From a virus, in the IMG/VR virus record IMGVR_UViG_3300025904_000004, positions 1 to 54,608 of that record: a stretch of 54,608 nt of DNA. The stretch is one strand, 5' to 3'. Position 1 is the first letter of the stretch, and every line of letters begins with the position of its first letter. A model generated the notes under the pieces. That model worked only from the letters and a program-made list of their open reading frames with translations. It searched no databases and had not been told where the DNA came from. This document shows, one piece after another, positions 494 to 6,850 of this stretch. The position numbers were made by a program, and so were the translations under genes.

Positions 494-853
494 TTATTTT
501 GATAACCGGCTTTCAGAATATCCGTTAGCCTTTGCCCATTTGGGATCTTTCTCTATTTGTTTGTGATGCTTCCTACAGGTGCTTAGCATGTGCTTAATGA
601 GATAAAGAAATTCTCCAATCCTTCCGCGCTTATGATGAACCTCTGCTGCCCGTTCATTGCAACCCTCTACTTCACAGTTTGGGTTTTGTTTTAACTTTTC
701 CGCCCTGGCTTTCCTGAATAGTTTCTGCCGTTCCTTTTCATCTACCACTGGCTTATCAACCATCGATGTCTTTCCATATTGCCGCCAATGGCTATAGCAA
801 AGCTTTCCATGGGTAGCCTCCTGCCGGCAGGTTGGCCATTCACATTCAATCAT
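494..853 (-). CDS. HNH-type nuclease-like zinc protein
   Basis: This 119-residue protein has two metal-binding clusters. An N-terminal knuckle uses C4, C9, H15, C19 and H22. An HNH-like core has C60-x4-C65, the His pair H73-H74 in EVHHKRGR, and C93 with H96/H97. The pattern CxxxxC...VHHKxGR...L.CRxHH matches small HNH endonucleases found in many phages. It overlaps the gene upstream (850-1233) by four bases (ATGA), so it is co-translated in the recombination operon. It could nick DNA in recombination or packaging; that role is inferred. The metal ligands are directly visible. Confidence 0.8.
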   Translation of the reverse strand: MIECEWPTCRQEATHGKLCYSHWRQYGKTSMVDKPVVDEKERQKLFRKARAEKLKQNPNCEVEGCNERAAEVHHKRGRIGEFLYLIKHMLSTCRKHHKQIEKDPKWAKANGYSESRLSK

Positions 854-1233
854 GACACAAACTTTTTAGGTTCAGGAATGGTTTCTTTAAGCTCTTCGGC
901 AGCAAACTTGCAAACTCGTTCTACGTAATTATTGAAATCCGCGTCATTCATATCTGAAGTAGTTTTGCCTTTATTAAAAAGCTTTTTACAGAACTGATGC
1001 GCATCATATACATCCTGTATATCATCGTGGCCCAGAGCCTTTAAACCACGCTGAACGAATGAAAGAACCACTTTGAAATAATACCCATCAGACTGCCTGC
1101 TATGCCTGTTGACAATCGTTATTTCCATCATGGATAAACCAACCGGAAGCACGTCGAATATTGCACGCAAAGCCTTACCGTTTTTAATGGTCCCATCCTG
1201 GGCTTTGTCTATTGGTAAAAAATGTGATGCCAT
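850..1233 (-). CDS. NinB-like recombination protein (putative)
   Basis: This 127-residue protein is read from ATG 1233, directly after the 86-residue gene. It keeps the pattern seen in NinB-like phage proteins: a basic stretch with a YYFKVVLSF helix (residues about 51-60), then G-x-D-D-IQDVYDAHQFCKKLF (about 67-85), and a C-terminal helix VERVCKFAAEELK followed by IPEP. In lambda, NinB (Orf) binds single-stranded DNA and works with annealing recombinases; ERF and a nuclease lie two genes upstream, which fits. I recognise the family pattern only from memory, so the specific name is tentative. Confidence 0.6.
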   Translation of the reverse strand: MASHFLPIDKAQDGTIKNGKALRAIFDVLPVGLSMMEITIVNRHSRQSDGYYFKVVLSFVQRGLKALGHDDIQDVYDAHQFCKKLFNKGKTTSDMNDADFNNYVERVCKFAAEELKETIPEPKKFVS

Positions 1234-1494
1234 TTAAAAAAGTGTGTTTGTGCTTTGAGTATTTGATTTTACCGGTTTTGTTTTCTTCTCAGGAACTACC
1301 GGTGTTTCAACTGATGGTTTTACTTCCACATTTTCTTCAGTGAGATTTGCTTTTAAAGTGGGGAACCGGTCTCCTTTCAAACTTTCCACTATTACCACAT
1401 TGCCACGCTCCACAATTATTAAAACCGGTTCCCCTGCAGCTCCGTATACTTCCTTTGTCATGAAACTTTTCACAGTATCTTTCAGCTTCAGCAT
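1234..1494 (-). CDS. Small hypothetical protein of the recombination operon
   Basis: This 86-residue protein has a short beta-rich N-terminal half, including GEPVLIIVERGNVVIVES, that could form an SH3/KOW-like fold. A low-complexity tail follows, rich in Val, Pro, Lys and Thr, probably disordered. It sits tightly between the nuclease-FtsK gene and the NinB-like gene (overlap of one base upstream, adjacent downstream), so it is probably expressed with them. I do not recognise a family. Confidence 0.65.
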   Translation of the reverse strand: MLKLKDTVKSFMTKEVYGAAGEPVLIIVERGNVVIVESLKGDRFPTLKANLTEENVEVKPSVETPVVPEKKTKPVKSNTQSTNTLF

Positions 1495-3569
1495 TAGTCA
1501 ACAATTATTGCATCAGAAATGTGCGAGTGTTTTACAACAGCTTGGCCATTGTCTTTGTAAAAGGCCTGGAAGCGGACAGTTTGTATATACTCAGGTGATT
1601 TCATCAACCCGTCACCACGGCCAGCCAATCCTTCAGCACCTGGTTCGTCCAAAACAACCTTACTATCGATTTCTTTTGGTACACGGAAGCAAACCATAAC
1701 CGGGAAGTTTACTTTTGCATCACCGGTAATAACTTTTGTAGAAGCTCTTTGTGTGGCAGCCAGGATGCGGAAACCAGACGAGCGGCCTTTTTGTAGAAGT
1801 ATGCGCAAATTTTCTTCCAGGGATTTTGCCCCGAAGGCCCGCAACTCTTTTGCACTGCGTGACTGAGCAACCGCATCCGCAAACTCATCGAAGACAATAA
1901 GTGTCCTTGTTTGCTTTCCTTTTTTTTCCAGCTCATTCATGAATTCAACCAGCTTTGCCATCTCATCTTCTATATCTTCAATTTCATTGAAAACCTTTAT
2001 GCCCCTTTGCCCTTTGTAATAAGTGAATTCATGTTTGGGGTCCATGATGACAATGTTATCCGCATCTACCAGGCGGCCATATTCAATGGTCGATTGAATA
2101 GAAACTGATTTACCACTACCTGTGGCACCGCAAACAAGCATGTGCGGTGTAGAATGATTGTTCCAATCCCAAACGATTATTTCACCGAAGTTGTCCTTAC
2201 CGATGGGTATGCGTTGACCCTTTAATAGTAAGGGGTCAAAGAATAAATCTTTTTCACGTTTTTTGCTAAAGTCCACAGACAGGTATGATTTGCCTTCATA
2301 TACTACCATTTCGGGTGAGATGCGCACATTTGAAACATCAAGCGCATTGGCAATGTCCAGGCGCCTGCTGAACACAGAAGATACTTTTACACCTGCAGAC
2401 ACAGAAAGTAAAAAGGTGTTGCTGCTATAGCCTTCAAACTTGTGTGCTACCTGCACGATAATTCCGAATGAACGCAGCACGTGCTCAATTTTTTCTTCGT
2501 TTGTCATATTCTTGTTTGATAAATCGTATTGAATAAATTGTGAGGCATTCTCCCGGAAAGTTTTTATGATGGCCGGGCTTACTGAAGCGATTGAACTATC
2601 GCGGATTTTCTTCAGGCGTCTTGAAACCATTGCCTTTTTGGTCTCATCCACATTAAAATCATCCACCTCTGCAATCATTGTTCTGCACCAGAAGTCGTAT
2701 AGCTCAGCTTTGTCAACAAAATTGTCTGAAGGATTAATTAAGTACACGTAGTCCGGGTTATTAACCGCCGCGACCATGCGGCTCAATGGTTCATACAGCA
2801 AAGCCTCATAAAGCCTTCTGTTATCGGGAGTCGTTTCCACACTGAACAAATTCAGCTGCGGCCTGCCGTCTTTGTTTTTTGAATATTTATTCTCAACGAA
2901 CCAAACCTCGTCAACATGCTGGCCAGTCTTTGATTCGTATCCCAGAACGTAGGTCATTGCCTGTTCACCGATTGACAGGGCTATTTCCTCATCATCAGAA
3001 AATGTAGCCTTTGATTTATGGTCAATGATGACAATTGTATCATCATGAGTTCTTACAACCAGGTCAATTATACCATGACACGGCAAAGGAATATCCACAC
3101 CGTTAACAGTCAGGAATTCGCTGAACTTAATTTCTACTTCCAACACTTCCTTAATTCTGTCTTCGTATGTTGATAATTCGCCAAAGAAGTTTTTAAGCAG
3201 GTCACTGGCAGTTTTACTGGCTTTTATTTGGCACTCTTCCACAGTGGGCGTGGTCTTCTGTAGCTTCCACGAATTGCCGTGCACTTCACTGATATATTGG
3301 AATGCCGCCTGTTCACACTCCACCAGGTCAATTTTCTTTCCTTCTTTCTTTTGAGTGAAATAATATTGAAGTGCACTATGGTACGCCTGGCCAGCGACAG
3401 ATGAAGCGGATTTTTTGGAATAAAGGCCAAAAATGTAATTCATCTCAAACGCCTTTTCGTTACGGGAGAAGGCTGTAATCTTTGAATGGCTCCAACTGTC
3501 AACCAGGAATTGGGAAAAGAGCTCTTCAAGCTGTTCTATCTCGTAGCTTTTGTATATACTTTGGCTCAT
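1494..3569 (-). CDS. PD-(D/E)XK nuclease fused to FtsK/HerA-like DNA translocase
   Basis: This 691-residue protein has two catalytic halves. The N-terminal half has RecB/Cas4-type nuclease motifs: G60-xxx-H64, E144/E146, GIID (D169), DHK (D183-x-K185) and Q203-xxx-Y207. The C-terminal half is an FtsK/SpoIIIE-type ATPase with Walker A GATGSGKS (481-488), Walker B TLIVFDEF (556-563), the LQKGRSSGFRILAATQR segment (592-608) and a late AGRGDGL loop (649-655). Residues about 290-440 link the two and resemble no domain I know. Its start overlaps the ERF gene by four bases, so the two are translationally coupled. The likely role is ATP-driven resection or unloading of DNA ends to feed ERF-mediated annealing, as HerA-NurA does with two separate proteins. 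The domain calls are strong; the joint role is inferred. Confidence 0.9.
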   Translation of the reverse strand: MSQSIYKSYEIEQLEELFSQFLVDSWSHSKITAFSRNEKAFEMNYIFGLYSKKSASSVAGQAYHSALQYYFTQKKEGKKIDLVECEQAAFQYISEVHGNSWKLQKTTPTVEECQIKASKTASDLLKNFFGELSTYEDRIKEVLEVEIKFSEFLTVNGVDIPLPCHGIIDLVVRTHDDTIVIIDHKSKATFSDDEEIALSIGEQAMTYVLGYESKTGQHVDEVWFVENKYSKNKDGRPQLNLFSVETTPDNRRLYEALLYEPLSRMVAAVNNPDYVYLINPSDNFVDKAELYDFWCRTMIAEVDDFNVDETKKAMVSRRLKKIRDSSIASVSPAIIKTFRENASQFIQYDLSNKNMTNEEKIEHVLRSFGIIVQVAHKFEGYSSNTFLLSVSAGVKVSSVFSRRLDIANALDVSNVRISPEMVVYEGKSYLSVDFSKKREKDLFFDPLLLKGQRIPIGKDNFGEIIVWDWNNHSTPHMLVCGATGSGKSVSIQSTIEYGRLVDADNIVIMDPKHEFTYYKGQRGIKVFNEIEDIEDEMAKLVEFMNELEKKGKQTRTLIVFDEFADAVAQSRSAKELRAFGAKSLEENLRILLQKGRSSGFRILAATQRASTKVITGDAKVNFPVMVCFRVPKEIDSKVVLDEPGAEGLAGRGDGLMKSPEYIQTVRFQAFYKDNGQAVVKHSHISDAIIVD

Positions 3570-4339
3570 GGCATTGAAACTTTTTCAGGTTTAAAATTTT
3601 GTTTCAATTCCTCCTGCCGGTCTTTGAACATGGCCTTTAGCTTATCCCATCCATCCACAGCTTTTTTATTTTTCATATATAGGCCGGTAAGCTCAACTTG
3701 CCTGGAAGTGGCTTTAAGAAGCTCAGCCCATTGTTCCAGCGCCTCGTCTTCAGTCTGTTCCGGCTGTTGCTTCTGTTCCTGCTGTGTGGTACTGCCGCCC
3801 TTGCCATCAATATCTTCATCCGCGGTTGAAAGTCCCAGGGCTCCGATGAGCGTATATCGTTGCAGGTATGTTTGCGTGCTGCCTTTCTGCTGAATATCAT
3901 TTTTGGCGCCGCTCATGTCTTTGCCGGCTTCCATGCTTGTTGTTTGTTCATGGCCATCCCTGTGGCTTACATGGCAGGTTACTTCCAGCTTATCACCTTT
4001 CTCTTTAAAATCCCAGGTGTATGACAAACCGCATTCTCTCAAAAATGGATTGATGGCTTTCGTGATGCTGCCCAGGTCTGCGTATTTGTAAGAGAAGCTT
4101 CCTTTTTGTGAATTAATCTTTGCAGTCTTACCCTTTTTTAATTCAGGTACCATTGATTGAAAATTGGAAAGCGCATCAAGAAAGGCTTTCTTCGCTTCTT
4201 TCTTTTCCCATCGTTCCTGCAAATCCATCAGCTCTTTAAGCTGAGCCATATCCACACCCTTTTCAATTGCCTTCTCCAAAAGTGTTGTTGGAGTTGGAAT
4301 CGGCAAGGCGGGTTGCATTTTTGTAATTTGATTTCGCAT
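3566..4339 (-). CDS. erf: ERF-family single-strand annealing recombinase
   Basis: This 257-residue protein is an ERF superfamily annealase. After a 40-residue N-terminal extension, residues 50-190 carry the typical features: AFLDALSNFQ, then PELKKGKTAKI, then FSYKYADLGSI, NPFLRECGLSYTW and GAKNDIQQKGSTQTYLQRY, ending in LGLSTADEDIDG. ERF proteins (P22 Erf and relatives) anneal complementary single strands in phage recombination and can circularise genomes. It is the first gene of the recombination cluster, downstream of a hairpin-rich leader (4340-4543), and overlaps the nuclease-translocase gene by four bases. The C-terminal 60 residues are Gln/Glu-rich and variable, as is usual. Confidence 0.92.
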   Translation of the reverse strand: MRNQITKMQPALPIPTPTTLLEKAIEKGVDMAQLKELMDLQERWEKKEAKKAFLDALSNFQSMVPELKKGKTAKINSQKGSFSYKYADLGSITKAINPFLRECGLSYTWDFKEKGDKLEVTCHVSHRDGHEQTTSMEAGKDMSGAKNDIQQKGSTQTYLQRYTLIGALGLSTADEDIDGKGGSTTQQEQKQQPEQTEDEALEQWAELLKATSRQVELTGLYMKNKKAVDGWDKLKAMFKDRQEELKQNFKPEKVSMP

Positions 4340-4374
4340 ACTTTTGTAGGGTTATAGTGATTAAATAGTTTCAG

Positions 4375-4408
4375 ATGAAAAGCGGAGATCCTAAGTCTCC
4401 GCTTTTTT
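4375..4408. terminator. Bidirectional hairpin ahead of erf
   Basis: A perfect 8-bp stem agcggaga/tctccgct has a 7-base loop at 4381-4403. It is followed by six Ts on the plus strand, and by a TTTTC tract on the minus strand. It lies between the 96-residue gene and erf, in the leader of the recombination operon, so it would act as a terminator or attenuator of early minus-strand transcription. Confidence 0.65.
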
Positions 4409-4543
4409 AGTTTATGATAGATGGCTTCATCAGCCAGAGTTCCCAAATAACCGGCAGGCATGAGACCTGCCGGGTGTTATGGTTGGTAGCTTGAACTACC
4501 GTTTTAAAGAACTGCACCGGTGCTTACGTCCACCGTCAGACGC
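4409..4543 (-). other. Leader with two further hairpins
   Basis: Two more stems lie in this leader. At 4451-4473 there is a perfect 8-bp stem ccggcagg/cctgccgg with a 7-base loop. At 4485-4500 there is ggtag/ctacc with a 6-base loop. No convincing gene is seen; the open frame through here runs into erf out of frame and is not supported. The stems may be RNA processing sites or weak terminators. Confidence 0.5.
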
Positions 4544-4834
4544 TTAAAAATCTCCAGTTGCACCGCCTCCGCCGCCATCACCTCCGCCAAAATCAAAGCT
4601 GCTACTATTGTCAGGCGTGCTGTCAAATGAAGATGAACTGTCAAATGAAGGCATAGAAAATGATGGAGGATCCTCTACGGGCCTGCTGGTAGAATAGCTT
4701 GGCTCATCTTCCACTCGTGAAAAATTCTGCTGGTCTACGTAACTCAAAGAATTGTATTCGATACCACTAATCTTTTGGCCATAAGAATATTTATGGTTAT
4801 TGTGTGCTGTAAAAGACCTGTTGCATTTGTACAT
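4544..4834 (-). CDS. Small hypothetical protein with Ser/Phe-rich and glycine-rich tail
   Basis: This 96-residue protein starts with a compact basic segment (MYKCNRSF...YSYGQKISGIEYNSL). A Ser-, Phe- and Pro-rich low-complexity stretch follows. It ends in a glycine-rich tail, GGGDGGGGGATGDF. Proteins with this same plan, ending in a Gly-rich tail with a terminal GDF/GDY, recur in early regions of Bacteroidota phages; their role is not known. It has hairpins both upstream and downstream, so it may be a separately regulated early gene. Confidence 0.7.
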   Translation of the reverse strand: MYKCNRSFTAHNNHKYSYGQKISGIEYNSLSYVDQQNFSRVEDEPSYSTSRPVEDPPSFSMPSFDSSSSFDSTPDNSSSFDFGGGDGGGGGATGDF

Positions 4835-4925
4835 ATTGTTTGTTTTAATTGAGTTTTAAAAGAGGCCCGCCTGGAAAAGCAGGCCGTTTTCACATAATTA
4901 TCTTCAATAAAAACCAGAGACTTTT

Positions 4926-4951
4926 TAAAAGCCCCCACTGAAGCAGGGGCC
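4926..4951 (-). terminator. Hairpin with T tract
   Basis: On the minus strand a GCCCC/GGGGC stem is followed by TTTTAAAAAG. It sits between the 119-residue membrane protein and the 96-residue gene. The stem is short (5 bp) but GC-only, so a weak terminator or attenuator is plausible. Confidence 0.45.
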
Positions 4952-5031
4952 GATAAGTTGAACTGCACTTTTGACGCAAAGGCAGTCATTTAAAACATGC
5001 GAAGCGACTTTCCAAGAAGTAAAGAACTTTT

Positions 5032-5060
5032 AAAAAACAGCCCACAAATCCGGTGGGCTG
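5032..5060 (-). terminator. Rho-independent terminator after the 119-residue gene
   Basis: On the minus strand a perfect 8-bp stem CAGCCCAC/GTGGGCTG with a 7-base loop is followed at once by six Ts. It lies 29 bases past the stop codon of the 5089-5448 gene. This is the best terminator in the early left operon; downstream genes would need readthrough, antitermination or their own promoters. Confidence 0.8.
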
Positions 5061-5088
5061 TAACCCCTAAAACCCTAAACCGTCTTGC

Positions 5089-5448
5089 CTATGAAACAGT
5101 TGATTTATTCTTACTCATGATTAATTCAAAGCGCCTGTTCTTTATCTCCAGACAGATATTATCATAGAATTCTTTCAGGTCTTTTGAATCAACCCTCCCC
5201 TGGAATTCGGAATGAAATTCATCTGCATGGTCAAAGAACTCTGACAAGCCAGTTGTGGTACCGCATTCATTTATCTTTTGTAAAAGGGCTATATATGACT
5301 CGGTGCAATTTTTTCTGCTCACATTGGGAGGCACTATAGCCTTCTTCTTTGGCTCTCTCATTACATAGTATCCGCAGGCAATTATGAACAGGCCGCAGGC
5401 AAGGGTTAGTCCCAGTGATGGCGTAGTGGGGTTAATCGTTAATAGCAT
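5089..5448 (-). CDS. Small membrane-anchored protein
   Basis: This 119-residue protein has one N-terminal membrane segment (residues about 11-29, LGLTLACGLFIIACGYYVM). A charged soluble part of about 85 residues follows, with two predicted helices (ESYIALLQKINEC and DLKEFYDNICLEIKNRRFEL). It overlaps the 43-codon gene before it by ten bases and ends at a strong terminator. Family and role are unknown; early membrane proteins can affect superinfection or host takeover, but nothing here shows that. Confidence 0.7.
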   Translation of the reverse strand: MLLTINPTTPSLGLTLACGLFIIACGYYVMREPKKKAIVPPNVSRKNCTESYIALLQKINECGTTTGLSEFFDHADEFHSEFQGRVDSKDLKEFYDNICLEIKNRRFELIMSKNKSTVS

Positions 5449-5570
5449 GGTTTTCGTTTTAGATTATATAAGGTTGCTCGAAGAAATGCTTTGGCTTCAG
5501 TCCTGGTCTCTTCTCTCAGGCGCTGGCTGTAATGTTTTATCAGAAACTTTAAAAAGAATTCGGGATACAT
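5439..5570 (-). CDS. 43-residue early protein (short)
   Basis: From ATG 5570 the frame codes for a 43-residue basic helical peptide, with EFFLKFLIKHYSQRL and TEAKAFLRATLYNLKRK. It ends by overlapping the start of the 119-residue gene, which suggests coupling. A longer start at ATG 5654 (71 residues) is open, but it would run through the hairpin at 5590-5611 and through a repeated element, so I prefer 5570. Family unknown. Confidence 0.5.
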   Translation of the reverse strand: MYPEFFLKFLIKHYSQRLREETRTEAKAFLRATLYNLKRKPCY

Positions 5571-5581
5571 GAGGTTGGTTT

Positions 5582-5611
5582 TTAAAAGAGGGGCAAGTAA
5601 AAACAAGCCCC
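5582..5611 (-). terminator. Hairpin between Cro-like gene and early operon
   Basis: On the minus strand GGGGC/GCCCC (5590-5594 and 5607-5611) encloses a 12-base loop and is followed by TCTTTTAAAAA. It lies downstream of the Cro-like gene and 20 bases upstream of the 43-codon gene. A terminator or attenuator between the first early gene and the rest would fit an antitermination circuit. The stem is short. Confidence 0.5.
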
Positions 5612-5634
5612 CGGTAATACATCGTCTATTGCTT
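5612..5634 (+). repeat. Short repeated element, copy A
   Basis: The sequence CGGTAATACATC, two bases, then CTATTGCTT recurs at 7213-7236 in the same orientation with a 4-base spacer. The two copies flank the immunity region about 1.6 kb apart. Function unknown; a binding site is possible. Confidence 0.6.
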
Positions 5635-5656
5635 GTGAAAAAATACTCGTTCATCC

Positions 5657-5693
5657 TGTACAGAAAAATATGTACATAAGTGCTTGCACTTAT
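5657..5693. promoter_or_regulatory. Palindromes at the end of the Cro-like gene
   Basis: A perfect 18-bp dyad, ATAAGTGC-TT-GCACTTAT, spans 5676-5693 and overlaps the stop codon of the Cro-like gene. Two copies of the palindrome TGTACA lie at 5657-5662 and 5671-5676, fourteen bases apart. The cluster looks like protein-binding sites or a small terminator (minus strand: stem then ATATTTTTC). Which of the two is not decided by sequence. Confidence 0.5.
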
Positions 5694-5917
5694 ACGTTTT
5701 CCTTTGTTTCTTGAGGCTCAATTTCTAATATCTGTTCTTCTGTAAGACCAGTCTCCTTTTTAATAATAGCCAGCACAGATGCCTTTGTGAGCATATCGTC
5801 ATTGGTGTTTATCCATCTATGAACGGTCTGCTTTGTCACACCCTGGTCATCCATTACCTGCTGAACAAACCCCTTTGTCCCTTTGATTGCCAACCATGCT
5901 ATTTTTGAAAGTTTCAT
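5690..5917 (-). CDS. Cro-like helix-turn-helix regulator
   Basis: ATG 5917 gives a 75-residue protein; an upstream start at 5950 would reach into the operator region and is less likely. Residues about 12-40 carry a helix-turn-helix: GFVQQVMDDQ-GVTKQTVHRWINT. The C-terminal part (LTEEQILEIE) is acidic. It diverges from the repressor gene at 6029 over an operator-like region and is the first gene of the minus-strand early path, the position Cro holds in lambdoid phages. Role by position and motif; binding is inferred. Confidence 0.75.
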   Translation of the reverse strand: MKLSKIAWLAIKGTKGFVQQVMDDQGVTKQTVHRWINTNDDMLTKASVLAIIKKETGLTEEQILEIEPQETKENV

Positions 5918-5947
5918 GTTACTTTTTCTTATTTTTAATTGACAAGT

Positions 5948-6028
5948 CAAATATAGAATACAAAAGTATACAAAAGAACACCAATTGTAAACTTTAGTAA
6001 TCTTTTAATTACCAAATGTAATCTTTAG
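5948..6028. promoter_or_regulatory. Divergent operator/promoter region of the immunity switch
   Basis: Two sets of direct repeats lie between the divergent regulators. GTAAwCTTT occurs at 5987, 5997 and 6018 (full units TGTAAACTTTAG 5986-5997, AGTAATCTTTTA from 5996, TGTAATCTTTAG 6017-6028), offset 10 and 21 bp, that is one and two helical turns. ATACAAAAG occurs at 5958-5966 and 5968-5976, offset 10 bp. A Bacteroidetes -7 box, TATATTTG, is on the minus strand at 5948-5955, pointing at the Cro-like gene. The last repeat abuts the repressor ATG, so repressor binding could block its own expression. Confidence 0.7.
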
Positions 6029-6406
6029 ATGAAATCTAATGAAGTGGAGTTGTTGCTGCATAAGATTCAATCTGCAACCCGGCAGACACTGGATGATATT
6101 GCCGACACAATTAAAGTCAGCCGCCCTTATTTAAGTAAGGTCAAAAAAAAGGGGGAGGGTGATAATATTATAAGGCTATTGAAAAAACATTATGCAGATT
6201 CATTGAAGGAAGATGACAGTAAAATAGCGGCTGTTATTAACAGCCGGCTTATTGAAATAGAAGCAAGATGCAGGGTTTTTGAGATTACTTTGATTGAGTT
6301 ATTATCCGGTGCAGAAAAGAAATCCAGTGCCGTTGTCGCTTCTGAATTGAAGAAAGCCATTTTAAATGAGCGTGAGATGTTAATGAAGGAACATGGGGGT
6401 GTTTAG
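6029..6406 (+). CDS. CI-type phage repressor (HTH)
   Basis: This 125-residue protein has an N-terminal helix-turn-helix, residues about 9-40: HKIQSATRQTLDDIADTIKVS then RPYLSKVKKK. A C-terminal helical part (residues about 60-120) follows, likely for multimerisation: KIAAVINSRLIEIEARCRVFE. There is no LexA/CI-type S24 protease domain, so SOS-type self-cleavage is not expected. It diverges from the Cro-like gene and is the first plus-strand gene, as expected for the lysogeny repressor. The assignment rests on motif and position. Confidence 0.75.
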   Translation: MKSNEVELLLHKIQSATRQTLDDIADTIKVSRPYLSKVKKKGEGDNIIRLLKKHYADSLKEDDSKIAAVINSRLIEIEARCRVFEITLIELLSGAEKKSSAVVASELKKAILNEREMLMKEHGGV

Positions 6407-6541
6407 CAAACTTTGGCTTGCATTTCCTAATACGCATAGCAACGCGGGTTTGAAGGGTTAATGTGAAGTGTCCTAAAGGTTTCGATTGGATAACTAATGT
6501 AAGTTTAAAACATTGTCTTATTTGTCAACAAAATCTTAAAC

Positions 6542-6850
6542 ATGAAATTATTGATTTTAGTCATTGTAATGGGCAACTTCGTTGCATGCAAATCGGCACC
6601 CGACAGGAACCAGATAATGACTGACTTTTTAAACCAAAAAAAAATCACTGAAGATAGCATCAGCCTGGCTTCAAACTATGAGCATTATTATTATCAAAAG
6701 GCAAAAGAGAGTATACATGCCGGGGAAGATTCTATAAAATGGAAAACTCTGATTGATAGTTCCAGTTATTATTCTTATCGTGGAAGCATTTTAAAACGGA
6801 GATTAACTGCGCTTGACTTTTCCGTTGATAGTTTGAGCAAAATGAAATAA
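6542..6850 (+). CDS. Predicted lipoprotein of the lysogeny block
   Basis: This 102-residue protein has a short signal peptide with a lipobox ending in NFVAC (Cys16). The mature part is about 86 residues, helical and Tyr/Ser-rich. No Bacteroidetes surface-export signal (acidic run after Cys) is seen, so it probably faces the periplasm. It is on the same strand as the repressor, behind a 135-bp gap, and so may be made in the lysogen. Phage lipoproteins made in this way can block receptors (as T5 Llp does); that role is inferred. Confidence 0.7.
   Translation: MKLLILVIVMGNFVACKSAPDRNQIMTDFLNQKKITEDSISLASNYEHYYYQKAKESIHAGEDSIKWKTLIDSSSYYSYRGSILKRRLTALDFSVDSLSKMK

Follow-up and report, generated by a model that had tools for sequence, protein, structure and literature searches.

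A nuclease-FtsK fusion coupled to exchangeable annealing proteins in phages: a probable two-component recombinase

The subject of this report is a pair of overlapping minus-strand genes in the IMG/VR virus record IMGVR_UViG_3300025904_000004, which was analysed over a window of 54,608 nucleotides (positions 1 to 54,608 of the record). The first gene encodes a 257 amino acid single-strand annealing protein of the ERF family (3566..4339; PF04404, 2.2e-20; phrog_155, 1.2e-41), and the second a 691 amino acid protein (1494..3569) in which a nuclease is fused to an FtsK-type ATPase motor. At the junction (...TCAATGCCATGAGC...) the ERF stop codon TGA occupies positions 3568-3566 and the start codon ATG of the fusion positions 3569-3567, giving a 4-base ATGA overlap (3566..3569) by which, judging from the sequence, the fusion is translationally coupled to the annealing protein. 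The ERF protein ends in KPEKVSMP-COOH (3569..3592), which obeys a rule set out below and is a proposed docking peptide. Both the fusion and its overlap with the annealing gene had been claimed in a first-pass annotation and are borne out here; partner swapping and a common C-terminal tail, absent from that annotation, carry more weight as evidence and make up what is novel.

The fusion gene is a single uninterrupted open reading frame (ORF), and its domain make-up was established from Pfam and PHROG matches, an AlphaFold2 model and 100 relatives. Residues 25-245 (2835..3497, minus strand like all parts of the gene) constitute a RecB/Cas4-type PD-(D/E)XK nuclease domain, recognised through PDDEXK_1 (residues 25-227, 1.9e-14), conservation and Foldseek; this half also matches PHROG exonucleases. 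It is followed by an FtsK alpha domain (FtsK_alpha, PF17854; residues 351-431, 2277..2519; 4.2e-08) and by a RecA-like motor domain (residues 454-672, 1554..2210), residues 454-495 of which match FtsK_SpoIIIE (PF01580, 2.4e-08) and which retrieves FtsK from the PDB at 7.8e-28 by sequence and 1e-23 by structure. The nuclease carries the RecB-family motifs G-x3-H (G60-x3-H64), D (D169), D-x-K (D183-x-K185) and Q-x3-Y (Q203-x3-Y207), with E146, on the predicted PD-(D/E)XK fold, and the motor has both Walker A (GATGSGKS, residues 481-488, 2106..2129) and Walker B (TLIVFDE, residues 556-562, 1884..1904). Residues G60, H64, E146, D169, D183, K185, Q203, G481, G486, K487, E562, Q607 and R608 show no variation across the 80 relatives in the alignment, while Y207 and D561 are each kept in 79 of the 80; the earlier statement that H64, D169, D183, K185, Q203 and the Walker motifs are intact therefore holds. 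In one relative (IMG/VR 3300006483_000020, 3784-6684) some 260 residues resembling an intein, with an HNH-like stretch, are inserted exactly within Walker A (GATG^C...HN^SGKS).

With 80 relatives as input, AlphaFold2 gave a confident model (predicted local distance difference test score, pLDDT, 88.7; predicted template modelling score, pTM, 0.78). The nuclease fold, on which the first-pass annotation had staked its reading, is predicted, and Foldseek places this half with the RecB/Cas4-type nucleases ACE1, AdnAB and Dna2. For the motor half the closest structures are the FtsK proteins of E. coli and Pseudomonas, including the DNA-bound 6t8o (1e-23), with HerA at about 1e-6. The chain stops some 20 residues past the motor, residues 676-691 being of low confidence in the model; there is no Pfam match to the FtsK gamma domain in the fusion, and this domain, which serves in the recognition of DNA sequence, is missing.

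These assignments allow the fusion to be set against known motorised nucleases. It had first been described as a HerA-NurA-like system, and the likeness is an analogy with a nuclease acting at DNA ends together with a ring ATPase from the FtsK-HerA superfamily. Membership was rejected on the alpha domain that stands ahead of the motor where HerA has an N-terminal HAS barrel, on the structural scores just given and on a DUF87/HerA match (3.8e-06) that holds at superfamily level only; no NurA-family nuclease is among the Pfam matches of the fusion, the nuclease half being PDDEXK_1. Here an FtsK-type motor and a RecB-type nuclease form one chain, in a phage and with an annealing protein as partner, and only the functional analogy survives. 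RecBCD, AddAB and AdnAB also feed a RecB-family nuclease by an ATP-driven motor, and AdnAB and Dna2 are among the structural matches, but their motors are superfamily 1 helicases whereas that of the fusion is an FtsK double-strand translocase. Like FtsK, SpoIIIE and TcpA, the fusion has an alpha domain and a RecA-like motor, and its structure matches to FtsK show 24-27% identity; it differs in having neither a membrane or linker region nor the gamma winged-helix domain, and in its N-terminal nuclease.

Relatives of full length, with about 50-67% identity, came from 22 genome contigs and about 78 IMG/VR virus contigs, some 90 of them distinct at 95% identity, and their setting is that of Bacteroidota prophages and viruses. 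The 22 genome contigs all belong to Bacteroidota except for one 4.9-kb contig filed under Sedimentibacter. Among INPHARED phages and PLSDB plasmids no fusion was found at a coverage of at least 80%, the listed matches covering the FtsK half. The gene is rare in genomes, since a search with the nuclease half of three draws of 395-399 Bacteroidota genomes returned the three centre genomes and one further match. The halves are almost always joined: of 153 ORFs that contain one half or the other in the examined loci, 152 have both. A 27%-identical nuclease-FtsK fusion (locus L586, 4196-6947) occurs in a phage with TGA reassigned to tryptophan, where 668 amino acids are open under translation table 4. 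No paper on the fusion or on the tail was found in the open literature, most subscription journals lying outside that search.

In the 100 loci nearly every fusion has a coupled gene directly upstream, mostly through an ATGA overlap, and where this gene does not encode an annealing protein an unnamed one takes its place. Ten partner families were distinguished: c0 (phrog_3657), Sak4-like, RecT, c3, ERF, Rad52, Bet/RecT, a RecT-like family (phrog_561), phrog_15333 and a singleton, the ERF, Sak4, RecT, Bet/RecT, Rad52 and RecT-like names having been assigned by profile. It is probable that some of these families belong to a single annealase superfamily as remote relatives; Sak4, a RecA-like family, has no kinship with the rest. 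Mapped onto the fusion tree, the partners require at least 35 changes of family, where one origin each would need nine and shuffled labels require 54; a partner family is thus passed on for some time but replaced often. The annealer slot is also filled by proteins of unnamed families that carry the annealer tail, as in L018 (7144-7998; c0, phrog_3657), L020 (7237-7995; c3), L066 (3350-4060; phrog_15333) and L076 (7159-7977), and from their slot and tail these are probably unrecognised annealing proteins.

Homologues almost always adjoin an annealing protein, the other point on which the first-pass annotation had staked its reading, and the joint role in phage recombination proposed there is likely. 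FtsK-HerA motors are also known from packaging and defence systems, and the fusion could in principle be a genome-processing or anti-host nuclease-pump (for host DNA degradation, as a packaging aid or in anti-phage defence) with the annealer as a mere operon neighbour; weak PADLOC matches to the motor half (mad8, SspH, HerA) and the filing of related motors by PHROG as host-takeover genes fit such a role. This we regard as very unlikely in view of the near-constant coupling with annealers of several families, which adjoin a lambda-type exonuclease in loci that lack the fusion, and of the match of the nuclease half to PHROG exonucleases.

The partners, diverse as they are, end alike. Among 87 distinct partners the C-terminus is [LMI]P in 65 and [LMI][PLM] in 80, and leucine or methionine stands at position -2 in 86. 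Comparisons with hhalign between unrelated partner families gave only weak matches, all of them in the tails. Eleven distinct fusions found later (47-75% identical to those known), in a new search with other patterns made after the tail rule had been formed, have partners ending in [LMI][PLM] in 11 of 11 cases and in strict [LMI]P in seven.

A tail next to an overlapping start codon might be a passive outcome of the ATGA coding constraints, or a single ancestral operon end spread by recombination. The gap between partner and fusion is indeed -4 in 49 of 83 counted junctions, and there are a few loci with a clear exchange of the C-terminal 70 or so residues between c0 and c3 partners (72% identical in L063/L017). 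The coding artefact is ruled out by three observations: of 105 further genes coupled through ATGA in these loci, only one ends in [LMI]P; where the spacing differs, [LMI]P is kept in 22 and [LMI][PLM] in 29 of 34 junctions; and two partners parted from the fusion keep the tail, MEMP in L083 (one homing-type gene between) and PQMP in L091 (three genes between), which shows that it is not a by-product of the overlap. The sequence ahead of the last residues differs between families, and a tail that is kept even if it was spread by recombination implies use; a passive origin is thus the least probable of the explanations considered, and is highly improbable. Exchange of the tail region between families is directly visible in L017, L029, L063 and L094, whose c0 and c3 partners have the C-terminus of about 70 amino acids in common at 55-72% identity.

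Five of the annealer families also occur in viruses without the fusion, and within them [LMI]P was found in 57 of 79 partners with the fusion and in none of 236 without it (Fisher, 7e-45), each family being significant alone. Over 21 well-supported tree-independent pairs about 16-17 were concordant and at most about one discordant. Six fusion-less annealers do have [LMI][LM] ends; their records, in several cases fragments, hold no fusion at another place.

The gene after the annealer in fusion-less relatives is most often phrog_4763 (151 loci), which PHROG lists as of 'unknown function' and which by profile search belongs to the lambda exonuclease family (PDB 3k93, 2.6e-36; lambda exonuclease, 7e-10). 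Such genes (L122, 5043-5780, and 150 similar ones) follow annealers of five families. The annealers ahead of them have longer C-termini that are similar across several families (89 cross-family matches), as would be expected if these annealers too are matched to their nuclease. In L474-L507, 17 c3 relatives are followed by a protein of metallo-beta-lactamase fold, and 16 of the 17 end in phenylalanine, possibly another partner-specific tail.

That the tail might be a signature of the host is weakened by three named Bacteroidota phages whose annealers lie beside an exonuclease-type gene and lack [LM]P: Sak4 of Flavobacterium FL-1 (...KDEQ), RecT of Riemerella GDF21 (...DLTK), where the neighbouring gene is annotated only as hypothetical, and RecT of Leeuwenhoekiella Arctus_1 (...AEKS). 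The host control stays small because fusion-less c0 partners were absent from 395 Bacteroidia genomes. The tail appears to follow the nuclease, and neither the annealer family nor, as far as tested, the host.

The main rival accepts the same recombination machine and has the tail bind a third protein, such as a host or phage single-strand DNA-binding protein (SSB), a clamp or a part of the replisome, rather than the fusion. There is a loose likeness between the acidic-hydrophobic-proline end of the tail and SSB C-termini such as ...DDDIPF. Were the target a host protein, one would hardly expect the tail to track the nuclease, as it does within the five families, and the tail is absent from the Bacteroidota-phage annealers just listed; we hold this rival to be unlikely.

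Red-beta of lambda Red binds lambda exonuclease through its C-terminal domain, presumably so that Red-beta is loaded on the exposed strand, and the parts of Red and RecET are not interchangeable (PMC8303780, PMC5052646). As in these 'SynExo' systems, exonuclease and annealer are adjacent and coupled in the present loci, and the annealer families concerned also occur with a lambda-type exonuclease. The window has a recognised annealer family (ERF, 2.2e-20) and, joined to it by ATGA, a PD-(D/E)XK nuclease (PDDEXK_1), which belongs not to the lambda exonuclease, YqaJ or RecE families but to the RecB/Cas4 type and is fused to an ATPase motor. A 691-residue chain here thus stands against a small toroidal exonuclease there, and one exonuclease family serving about ten partner families against partners that cannot be exchanged. 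In Red the annealer is known to make contact through its C-terminus (PMC5052646, PMC8303780), and a contact at that end is proposed here too, through a peptide of a few residues and not through a folded three-helix domain.

The fusion and its annealer are best read as working like an exonuclease-annealer pair whose exonuclease comes from a different family and carries a motor. We consider it likely that they form a two-component phage recombinase in which a single-chain, ATP-driven nuclease-translocase replaces lambda exonuclease. The FtsK part would form a ring, presumably hexameric, on double-stranded DNA, and the motor would drive the DNA into or past the tethered RecB-type nuclease, so that one strand would be degraded, presumably with one polarity, in ATP-dependent resection. 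The annealer, tethered to the machine by physical docking of its C-terminal [L/M]P peptide, would be loaded on the emerging single strand and would then anneal it to homologous DNA. Docking through the [L/M]P end is proposed by analogy with the binding of lambda exonuclease by the Red-beta C-terminal domain, and the tail may accordingly be a docking peptide that can pass from one annealer to another and brings its bearer to the motorised nuclease.

Several observations weigh against this interpretation. In about a quarter of the tails the last residue is L, M, A, K, Y or S rather than P. Kinship inflates the raw tail counts, the test on independent pairs resting on about 21 of them, and host effects are only partly controlled among the IMG/VR contigs. 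In the very distant L586 the fusion follows directly upon a RecT gene (83-nucleotide overlap) whose product lacks the [LM]P tail. The proteins of c0/phrog_3657, c3, c8/phrog_15333 and L076 are not named as annealers in any library, and a model of c0 (pLDDT 81) had no significant PDB match, Red-beta appearing only at E 0.27.

Three genes beyond the pair, all on the minus strand, are small. Downstream of the fusion, and probably in the same operon, lies a gene for 86 amino acids (1234..1494) with no assigned function and no Pfam or PHROG match. A 127 amino acid protein (850..1233), earlier called NinB-like, matches phrog_23774 (unknown; 7.7e-05), and the NinB assignment found no support in Pfam, NCBIfam or PDB sequences. 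The next product, of 119 amino acids (494..853), had been called HNH-like; a weak match to the HNH family phrog_740 (4.5e-05) speaks for this, and it has no Pfam match. Positions 1-166 hold 13.8 copies of a 12-bp tandem repeat (AAGCTGTGAGCC) inside a minus-strand ORF that runs off the left edge.

There is, in our estimation, an even chance that the annealer C-terminus is more generally a transferable address label for the choice of exonuclease: [L/M]P for the nuclease-FtsK fusion, longer cross-family modules for the lambda-type exonuclease, and terminal phenylalanine for the partner of metallo-beta-lactamase fold. Any annealer that gained the label could then plug in, and one motorised nuclease would come to have about ten partner families. 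If the proposed mechanism is true, these phages possess a recombinase of undescribed build, whose single-chain ATP-driven nuclease is compatible with many annealers through a few C-terminal residues, and which would allow the transfer of single strands from exonucleases to annealers to be tested directly. Slot and tail together could reveal unnamed annealing proteins (c0/phrog_3657, c3 and phrog_15333), and the system might provide a modular recombineering tool for Bacteroidota in which, unlike the parts of Red and RecET, one nuclease is used with different annealers.

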